From NCBI RefSeq assembly GCF_037975245.1, contig NC_092574.1, positions 17,587,213 to 17,651,212 on the forward strand: a DNA stretch of 64,000 bases, in the 5' to 3' direction. Within the stretch, counting starts at the first letter, position 1. Each line of letters begins with the position of its first letter. This stretch comes from Apostichopus japonicus (taxonomy: Eukaryota; Echinodermata; Holothuroidea; Aspidochirotida; Stichopodidae). The notes under the pieces are model-generated. The model saw nothing but the letters and a program-made list of their open reading frames with translations, ran no database searches and had not been told where the DNA came from. This document shows, piece by piece, positions 58,801 through 62,400 of the stretch. Made by a program: the position numbers and the translations under genes.

Positions 58801-61800
58801 AAAAGGAAGACTTGATTTGCGCAAAGACATAATAAAAATGGCCTACGTATTGAACCATTCTTGGGGAGACACCACAAAAAGAAGCCTATATTATAGTTTA
58901 AAAGTGGAGCAGGTGATGGGGGGGGGGGGGGAGAGGGGAAGGAGGTGGCATATAAGGATGGTGAGAAGCAGTTGAATCAGTTTCAAGGCCAAGGAGTACC
59001 TTCCTTATAAGACTGTATTGCCTCCCTGCCTGATCTCAGAACGACAATACTGGCATTGAGATCGTCAAATTGATTTAGTTTTTTAGTTTTTTTTTACATG
59101 CCAATCCTCTTAAAAGGCACAGCTTGGCTTTCTTTAATAAAACAAGATTGATAGTGTTTGGTCTCTTGTAAATCAAGCTCTCAGAGAAAGAGAAAGAGAA
59201 TAGACAAAGAAGAACAAAAGAAGAAGAAGAAGAAAAGGAAGGCAACCAAAAAGGGTAACCTGAAATAATCCCTTATCCACATCACATTTATTGGGGTGGG
59301 GGGTGAATTGGGAGGGGCTAGTTACCAAAAACGGCAGAAACTTTCTATGCCTTGGTGTTTCTTTTAGGTTGCAAATATATATACCTGCTTGGGATTGGTG
59401 GTTGTTGATAGTATCTAACATAACCTTGAACTTTCTCAAAACTTGAGAAAAATTAAAACATTTCATGAATTCAATGGGTACAGTACCAATCAATATAAGT
59501 ACCACAGTGTTTTATATCAAGAATCATTTCTTTTATTGAATTTGAGTATATTAAGACATTGAGTGTCTAGATACATTACATACCACTTCAATTTTTGTGT
59601 ACAGTGTTAAAACAGTTAAATACAAATTTCCCTTGAAAAAAGTATATACAGAGAGATGCACATTCTATGAAAATCAATTTGGCTTCAGTTAAAATCATTG
59701 AAGCTTGGCTAATATAAATAATTCTAAGTAAAAACACTGCCCACCTGCAACTTTGGTCTTACATGCAATGTAATGGGGTAGAATAACTCTTATTAACCAC
59801 AATCACTTCCAGTCTGTAAGCAGAATTGAAACAAAACACAAACAAAAATATGGCTCACTGCTTGAACACTCAATAACCTCTAAAATCCACAAGCTGTGTC
59901 TATTCCCCCCACCCCCCCCCAACAAAAACATGTTTATTCTGATTAAAATCATTTCTCGTCCTAATGGCACCCAGAGGATTATAAACAGCCTTTGGTAATA
60001 CCTTACATGGAGGTTTGTATATATACAATCACCTTAATAAACATCTTTCAAATATTACACAAGCATGAAATTGCTTTCATTTGTTTTCAATACAGATGAA
60101 TAGTGCTATAAGTAACCCGCCCACCCCCCATCCATCCCCCCCACTGGCATGTTTTCCATTTTTTGCAACCTAAGGGATAATCAACTCATTCATATCCATT
60201 TCCTTGAATGTTTTTTATCAACATCTCATATGCTTGTTTATTGGCTGCTAGCCCCTTTTTAAGATCCTTACAAAAGTTGACCCCAGATTTTTTTTTTTTT
60301 TTGAAGTACTGTACCCTAATAAAAATTTAAATTCAAAGTTAAAGGTTTACATTCTTGTTTGAGGCCAAGTCCCCCTCACACGACTTTACATCTGAAGCCC
60401 TGGTCATATGTAACTTGTCACACCCACACACCAGTGTGCACAATTCAAACAATCCCTCCTGGGGCACCACGTTTCACCATATCTCATGTCCAGGGGGACT
60501 TCCCATAGGGTGCTGCCACAAACCGGCGCAAACAAGTATATTTACAAGTTACCTCCCAAATACTCATTTGTACACCTGGGTGAAGAAAGGCAAAGGAGAT
60601 ACAGTGCCCTGCTTTGCCCATGGACACAACGTAATGATCTGGTCGGGACTTGAACCTGCAAACCTTAGATCACAAGTCCACTGCCATAACCACTTGACCA
60701 CAACACTCTCATTAACAACAACCCCTAGCTCATTCATGGAACAGTCCCGATTAATACCAAAAGGTCAGTGTACATACTACAGCACTACTACTGTAATGTA
60801 CATGTTAATATACTTAAAGACAGGAAGCTCACAACACTAATGACATATGCAGAGTCATGACATTATTACTTGTTTTTTGGGTTTTTTTGTATACGTAGCA
60901 CTCTTACATTGCTGTTTTATCACATAATGTCAGTTTTTTTTATGATTGATTTATATTGTCCTTAAGTAAACTGACAGTAAAAGACATGAATAATAACGGG
61001 ATGCAAAGGAAACAAAACATAATGTAGAGTCATCAGTTTCCTCGGTAACATCGTCAAAGGTAAACACTGTTAGTCAAAGCCATTTGGATACTGTTTTACA
61101 CATTAACAGGATCAATAACTGTACTTTTCATAGTAACTCTAAAGGATACAAATCGTCAATAGGTAGAAGCACTTTCATGACCTTGATATGCACTTTTAAA
61201 TGATATTAAACTGATTTTATTTCTAACGTACTATTACAACGTGACTTCCGTGGTCAAGCCTACGAACATTGTTTTGAATAAGAACACATACAGTATATGT
61301 ATATACATATACATATAAATATATATATATATATATATATGTTGATACTAGTTGAGACTAGTGCAACACTAGTAGTTGTAACTCGGAGTTTCACGCGTTA
61401 TAGCAATTGTCAGACAACTGGTAGCTTGCTCCATGAATATATAGGATCCTCGTCGGGATTACCGGGGATTATACGGTTGTTGGTGTATTGATCTGCTGGT
61501 GTATTCTCTTTTGCGTCAGTTCTGTTGTTGGGGTTTTTTGCCTTCCTTCGGTGCTTGCTCCTTAGTTGTGCGCACAACTAAGGAGCGAGCACCGAAGGAA
61601 GGCAAAAAACCCCAACAACAGAACGGACGCAAAAGAGAGCACACCAACAGCCGAACACCGAAGAAAGTCTTACAAACCCACCAACAGAACGGACGCAAAA
61701 GAGAATACACCGACAGATCAATACACCAACAACCGTATAATCCCCGGTAATCCCGACGAGGATCCTATATATTCATGGAGCATAACTTGAAGCTACCAGT

Positions 61801-62400: not shown

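Follow-up and report, generated by a model that had tools for sequence, protein, structure and literature searches.

The window analyzed, a 64-kb stretch of sea cucumber DNA, contains a foldback at 61341–61876, recognized beforehand from the letters alone as a palindrome. Self-comparison of this piece confirmed it in the form of three complementary arm pairs: 61335–61427 with 61790–61882 (97% complementary), 61427–61553 with 61656–61782 (92%), and 61493–61571 with 61572–61650 (94%). The right arm comprises 61573–61876 plus a tail extending to 61944, and is longer than the left arm because one of two 66-nt tandem units is missing from the latter. The same 66-nt (22-codon) tandem duplication, affecting the C-terminal tail of the encoded protein, is present at 61586–61716 and at the ORF end of locus L010. 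The arms are joined 5′ to 5′; both begin at one base, with only CG separating them, and their outer ends lie on a TA repeat, the left at a putative reverse transcriptase (RT) start site designated site 1 and the right at a neighboring site 2 (Table 1). The alignment of the left arm to related copies extends to 61335, within the TA run. Target-site duplications are unreadable within TA repeats.

Table 1. Parts of the foldback and their positions in the window (PLE, Penelope-like element).
Feature	Position	Strand	Remarks
Left arm, inverted 3′ end of the PLE	61341..61570	-	Outer end at putative RT start site 1 (..AGTATCAACATATAT) in (TA)n run
Left-arm hammerhead-like motif, broken core CTGACAA (G8 to A)	61374..61419	-	
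Junction filler CG	61571..61572		Both arms start at CACAACTAAGG (TTGTG-CG-CACAA)
Right arm, end of PLE-like ORF, ~72 codons, two 66-nt tandem units	61573..61790	+	
TGA stop of PLE-like ORF	61788-61790	+	In right arm
TATA-box-like TATATATT	61766..61773	+	-32 to -25 from A61798; overlaps last ORF codons; putative role
Candidate transcription start CCA+1GTTGT	61798	+	First base of 117 head-to-head matches and many single insertions
Type-I hammerhead-like motif, intact core, U-U at 10.1-11.1	61798..61843	+	Cleavage expected after 61837
RT start site 1 (CAACATATAT), passed through in right arm	61873..61882	+	Putative role
Stem-loop GCTCTGTCC...GGACATAGAGC between the two putative RT start sites	61886..61908	+	By eye
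Tail to putative RT start site 2 (..CCAACCAACTC followed by TATATA)	61883..61944	+	

The Penelope-like family

A search of the same genome (671,581,487 bases in 35 contigs) with the arm sequence yielded at least 131 matching pieces, with 40 of the 1019 candidates scored, and the right arm is 92–97% identical over ~300 nt to at least 40 other scored places. Locus L010 harbors an 821-codon open frame (stop to stop) whose C-terminus is the arm's own peptide. This frame contains FISFDIVEFYPSI and YRDDGL, which we take to be RT-like motifs, IIYKAEV..TYIGL, presumably a GIY-YIG-like one, and the end CNLCLTEKL..KRPELISKCRH, presumably that of Penelope-like elements (PLEs). Pfam and NCBIfam searches of the PLE-like ORF recognized neither an RT nor a GIY-YIG domain, and a PDB sequence search with it returned nothing meaningful. 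The PLE assignment is based on the motifs read in this frame and on the insertion structure.

Alignment with these copies showed both arms to be the 3′ ends of one PLE-like family, which includes copies in this genome with an RT/GIY-YIG-like ORF. The link to Penelope elements made in the preliminary description is borne out. Its proposal that a pair with no RT represents a non-autonomous or novel class proved wrong: the arms hold the last ~72 codons of the ORF and its stop, and another locus of this genome has a full-length ORF ending in the arm peptide. The foldback is a truncated insertion of an ORF-bearing PLE-like family and does not represent a new RT-less class. Classification as a foldback or MITE-like DNA transposon was rejected on account of the unlike outer ends and the RT-like ORF of the relatives.

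The tandem arrangement giving pLTRs is present in L010, L018, and L044, where the leader directly follows the 3′ end; in tandem copies the counterpart of the tail 61883..61944 is the leader running into the ORF. Truncation at the 5′ end is evident from arms of many lengths among the loci read, and inverted pLTRs with an optional one-sided tail are also present in the family. In nearly all loci read (by eye), the outer ends run into TA repeats, indicating AT-rich targets. Head-to-head inverted repeats have already been described for PLEs (PMC3846280).

Two further PLE-like families, B and C, have hammerheads with a longer stem II, followed by a hairpin of similar kind (GCTCT..AGAGC). Their places are L051 (1451–1600) and L025 (near 4997–5037), plus the matches of a second core search described below. 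By eye, the stem-loop at 61886..61908 has a similar counterpart in the corresponding position of family B (L051), and a weaker one in family C (L059).

The hammerhead-like motif

The right-arm motif consists of a 6-bp stem I, CTGACGA, a U-U mismatch followed by a 3-bp stem II, GAA, and a 3-bp stem III (ACU CCG AGU, with U at H17). The core positions C3U4G5A6N7G8A9, G12A13A14, A15.1-U16.1, and H17 are complete in the right arm, while the left arm fails at one of them (G8A). Of the hammerhead architecture claimed for each arm, the type-I layout therefore stands for the right arm only, the left-arm core being broken (CTGACAA); the U-U mismatch noted at the base of the right-arm stem II was confirmed. 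The G10.1-C11.1 pair is absent, with U-U in the window and, by eye, among the matches listed (nested double matches of the core pattern being read at their inner motif), and U-C in both L009 copies. A type-I descriptor, composed after the right-arm motif had been seen, gave this motif as its single match on both strands of the 64 kb.

Rfam scans detected no hammerhead in the window piece (E up to 10), in the 101 nt alone, or in the whole window (gathering score), nor in nine PLE loci or in the family-B leader. The covariance-model check with Hammerhead_1 thus gave no hit on the window motif and speaks against the hammerhead claim. Matches to microRNA and mir-297 models in the window piece and the PLE loci were below the cut-off and were dismissed as hairpins and TA repeats. 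As a positive control, the RF00163 model scored over its cut-off at no fewer than 50 places elsewhere in the genome (at least 50, with 74 of 66,307 candidates scored); in 14 control genomes it produced weak matches, 0/14 over the cut-off. The motif is best termed hammerhead-like, in view of its core and layout, as it fails the formal Rfam test and one consensus pair.

Other genomic copies with the same core, to be expected for a real motif according to the preliminary description, were found: the exact core pattern CTGANGA..GAAACTCNGAGTNAC, which places no constraint on stem II, matched 938 times (473 + 465), and the reversed pattern 0 times. The core was intact in 27 of the 28 copies from loci fetched without demanding it, by DNA search and by fuzzy anchors with up to four errors, the exception being the left arm of the window; these copies show no free drift of its residues. 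The subtypes vary at N7, loop II, loop III, and H17, positions that are free in hammerheads, the core itself having been demanded by the pattern. A second core search produced 49 + 53 matches (2 + 0 in the control), most of them from two further families with a longer stem II (CGCC..GGCG), together with some nested or duplicated family-A motifs. The flanks of L051 (family B) and L059 (family C) differ from those of family A, and both families show the core, again demanded by the pattern, and mostly stem II pairing. Per-site changes (0.17 in the 5′ core and 0.6 in the 3′ core vs. 1.0 in the flank; 119/127 copies) were given little weight, as these loci were fetched by core-requiring patterns.

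It is rather unlikely that the resemblance reflects chance or dead sequence that never was a ribozyme and is not one now. Such an origin would agree with the missing covariance-model match even on 101 nt, with the replacement of the conserved G10.1-C11.1 pair by U-U, with a hammerhead fold (-3.5 kcal/mol) lying above the predicted minimum (-6.2 kcal/mol), and with the ~4.7 descriptor matches expected by chance at this genome size. The corresponding expectation for the window is, however, only ~0.0004 (both values being rough, from 7/400,000 random draws), the core is kept in copies fetched without asking for it, and families B and C, with other flanks and another stem II, still show the core and mostly its pairing. 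Moreover, the hammerhead of an Anolis PLE cleaves only with protein added (PMC11167929), and U-U occurs at the same place in an axolotl hammerhead (PMC7229834).

In the predicted fold of the 536-nt foldback (minimum free energy of -424.7 kcal/mol), 45 of the 46 hammerhead bases are paired with the opposite arm, and no cleavage is expected for this reason; the window hammerhead is probably silent. Formation of a long double-stranded RNA from a transcript of the window is plausible according to the same model.

Head-to-head pairs in the genome

Among the matches listed for the core pattern, all 19 close pairs are of the "- then +" type, i.e., head-to-head (hand count). Genome-wide, 117 head-to-head pattern matches meet at AGTTGT with a filler of up to 30 nt, the limit set by the pattern. 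AGTTGT represents the first bases of the hammerhead and starts 32 nt after the TATA box. Other inner boundaries comprise seven matches in or near the hammerhead, four at or near the cleavage site, and one at the window boundary; the boundary patterns were of somewhat unequal stringency, and the 117 include at least one match, L059, that is no genuine pair of the family. The single genome-wide match to the window's inner boundary is the window itself, no other pair with this boundary being found by pattern. The four matches at or near the cleavage site (C2:12900165, C1:14728120, C22:4412855, and C12:27901771) could be insertions from cleaved RNA.

Of the 117 pairs, the first 47 along the contigs, all located on C1–C9, were read for their outer ends; the pattern required the AGTTGT boundary, CTGANGA, and a filler of 0–30 nt. 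Two types of outer end, 62 nt apart and usually followed by TA repeats, were distinguished: site 1 (..CAACATATAT) and site 2 (..CCAACCTACTC or CCAACCAACTC). On a strict reading, 40 of the 47 pairs have one end of each type, 36 of them automatically and four after assignment by eye of arms whose site-1 ends are shortened or substituted (L032, L055, L068, and L080). A looser criterion, the presence or absence of the tail, classified 44 of the 47 as mixed. In 41 pairs both ends lie at site 1 or 2, giving 40 mixed pairs, a single 2/2 pair, and no 1/1 pair; if every end were a coin toss, the probability would be 42/2^41 = 1.9e-11.

Seven of the 47 pairs lack one end at each site. L059 belongs to another family, and its left side is not an arm. 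L093, the sole pair read with two site-2 ends, carries a private tail variant in both arms, as a snap-back origin would give. In the remaining five, one arm ends elsewhere, its partner ending at site 2 (L067, L075, L084, and L094) or at site 1 (L089); the putative RT start sites are, therefore, not strict. Four of these five arms (L067 right, L084 left, L089 right, and L094 left) have their outer end within or immediately behind the hammerhead, where they join a TA repeat. Such arms ending at TA-like stretches suggest that pairing of the RNA with a TA target can also set the RT start.

Long pairs in L001 and L009–L028 were mixed in 9/9 cases by alignment coordinates (L001, which is the window, L009, L010, L012, L019, L021, L023, L025, and L027). 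Five further mixed pairs with another or lost inner boundary were found at L029, L038, L049, and L052 and, by eye, at L034. L028, where two site-1 ends had been called 5 kb apart, turned out not to form a pair.

The arms were compared by hammerhead haplotype, as deletions in several arms make global-alignment identity uninformative. The haplotype is identical between arms in 25 of the 32 scorable pairs (of the 47) and differs in seven, whereas shuffling gave a mean of 4.7 and a maximum of 12 sharing pairs. This excess indicates that paired arms derive from one RNA or source.

Fillers in the 47 pairs are 1–27 nt long, with CAG and GC found five times each; with short fillers recurring in this way, some pairs may not be independent. 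At the 94 cDNA ends of these pairs, the first additional base is C in 50 cases, G in 36, T in seven, and A in one. An extra G is templated by the upstream CC, an extra C is untemplated, and the share of C among the 58 non-G ends is far above one third, with paired ends treated as independent. Five matches read GGT past the boundary, and 0/5 of them go on to the genomic template GGTAG. The extra C is as expected if the RT copies the cap, the signal being mixed with that of template-copied fillers. Single insertions joined to TA repeats also have their first base at AGTTGT; at 41 distinct places among the matches listed, the preceding base is T (16), G (16), C (8), or A (1) (hand count), T corresponding to a direct join to TA. 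In family B (L051), ATATA near -27 and TTCAGTT at the start were seen by eye. Taken together, these features suggest that the element RNA has its capped 5′ end at AGTTGT.

Mode of integration

With a probability of about 0.7, the window foldback represents a twin-primed insertion of the Penelope-like retroelement. The RT/endonuclease of the element would cut both strands of a TA repeat, and each freed DNA 3′ end would prime on the same RNA, one at each of the adjacent start sites. Both cDNA copies would reach the RNA 5′ end and be joined with a small, often copied, filler. An RNA from the normal promoter (TATA at -32, start at AGTTGT) would give a mini-foldback of two leaders, each comprising the hammerhead and, on one side, the tail; the hammerhead would form the first 46 nt of the normal transcript, with the core kept and G10.1-C11.1 changed to U-U. 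The window copy fits this model with an RNA begun 225 nt upstream of the usual start, and its arms would include the ORF end because of this extension. For this copy, a cryptic start, a broken RNA, or snap-back may account for the unusual boundary. In LINE-1 twin priming, two target strands likewise prime on one RNA, resulting in inverted insertions, with the second priming at varied internal places; here, it would occur mostly at fixed neighboring sites.

An origin by snap-back, in which the first cDNA folds back and primes the second strand to leave a palindrome with a tiny loop, is considered unlikely; a variant of it, put forward for rotifer PLEs, is self-priming with an antisense template. 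The window arms, which share their first base and are separated by CG alone, would suit such an event, L093 fits it with its two site-2 ends and shared private variant, and self-priming was argued from palindromic junctions in PMC3846280. Copying of the first arm, however, predicts like outer ends, and they are unlike in 40 of the 41 pairs and in the window, which argues against self-priming in most pairs. Furthermore, the arms of long pairs are broken at different places (e.g., L027 and L009), and the fillers of 1–27 nt in 47 pairs are not those of a tiny loop.

Two independent insertions of opposite orientation into the same TA repeat are hardly credible. TA repeats are indeed a frequent target, and single insertions in them are common, yet none of the 19 close pairs among the matches listed is tail-to-tail (hand count), haplotypes are often common to both arms, the arms nearly abut, few fillers contain TA-rich sequence, and the ends are mostly one of each kind. 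It is also improbable, if less so, that the foldbacks form a self-contained non-autonomous family, similar to retrozymes or MITEs, multiplying as a unit by means of its own paired ribozymes. The many copies of mini-foldbacks and paired hammerheads and the recurrence of a few short fillers would be explained by such a family; against it, the widely differing fillers (1–27 nt) and the arms of several PLE subtypes suggest mostly separate births, and the window junction has one match in the genome.

Returning to twin priming, a broader proposal, to which we give slightly less than even odds, is that PLEs as a rule integrate in this concerted manner: a paired enzyme complex would use two fixed neighboring start sites on one capped RNA, one site per target strand, the hammerhead being the very first bases of the RNA. 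If so, a single mechanism would produce inverted pLTRs, the one-sided tail, and leader-only foldbacks, and retention of the 5′ end would imply that the template in vivo is usually uncleaved RNA. For the completion of PLE integration and the inversion of repeats, self-priming is proposed in PMC3846280, and the later steps are left open in PMC11167929. Owing to their unlike ends, common boundary, and fillers, the many short, readable insertion footprints in this genome allow the competing models to be tested from sequence alone, and the boundary matches may serve as a genomic read-out of template-RNA cleavage (four at or near the cleavage site vs. 117 at AGTTGT). None of the literature titles and abstract openings covered mentions a sea cucumber PLE hammerhead or the use of one start site per strand.

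The closest parallel is the Poseidon PLE of Anolis carolinensis (PAc), whose purified protein acts on AT-rich DNA by cutting and extending the two strands, with synthesis starting at two adjacent internal sites that explain the "tail" (PMC11167929). Shared features are tandem copies with pLTRs, AT-rich targets, a hammerhead located within the pLTR/ORF-start region and preceding the RT start sites (putative here), and two such adjacent internal start sites with an optional tail (PMC11167929). The PAc ORF contains RT and GIY-YIG domains, compared with RT-/GIY-YIG-like motifs in the present family, for which cutting and extension of both strands, as in PAc, is proposed from the insertion structure (PMC11167929). 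Unlike PAc, the sea cucumber family has TA-repeat targets, U-U at the base of stem II, and a tail of 62 nt rather than 30–40 (PMC11167929). Most insertions here show one start site per strand, whereas in vitro the PAc start site was the same for the top and bottom strands, without a strand difference (PMC11167929).

Rotifer Penelope elements, as described in PMC3846280, likewise have head-to-head inverted pLTRs with palindromic junctions, a tail on one of the two inverted pLTRs, and a pLTR with a TATA box and an initiator. Their inverted junctions are ascribed there to self-priming, whereas the present leader-only mini-foldbacks, given their fixed inner boundary and unlike ends, speak for twin priming.

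The type-I topology and short stem III are shared with the animal type-I hammerheads and retrozymes of PMC7229834, and the U-U at the stem II base with the axolotl HHR_Amex2 of the same source. Retrozymes occur as direct tandem repeats, in contrast to the motifs seen here in PLE leaders, often as inverted pairs. A retrozyme made of direct tandem hammerhead monomers was rejected, since the close pairs are inverted, not direct. Canonical type-I hammerheads (39–47 bits) were observed at L100–L103, the top RF00163 places, located downstream of a tRNA-like sequence (GGTTCGATTCCTAC or a near variant), with a short 3′ end that enters TA repeats in three of the four loci. These loci represent a SINE- or retrozyme-like family that carries hammerheads and may owe its mobility to the PLE machinery.
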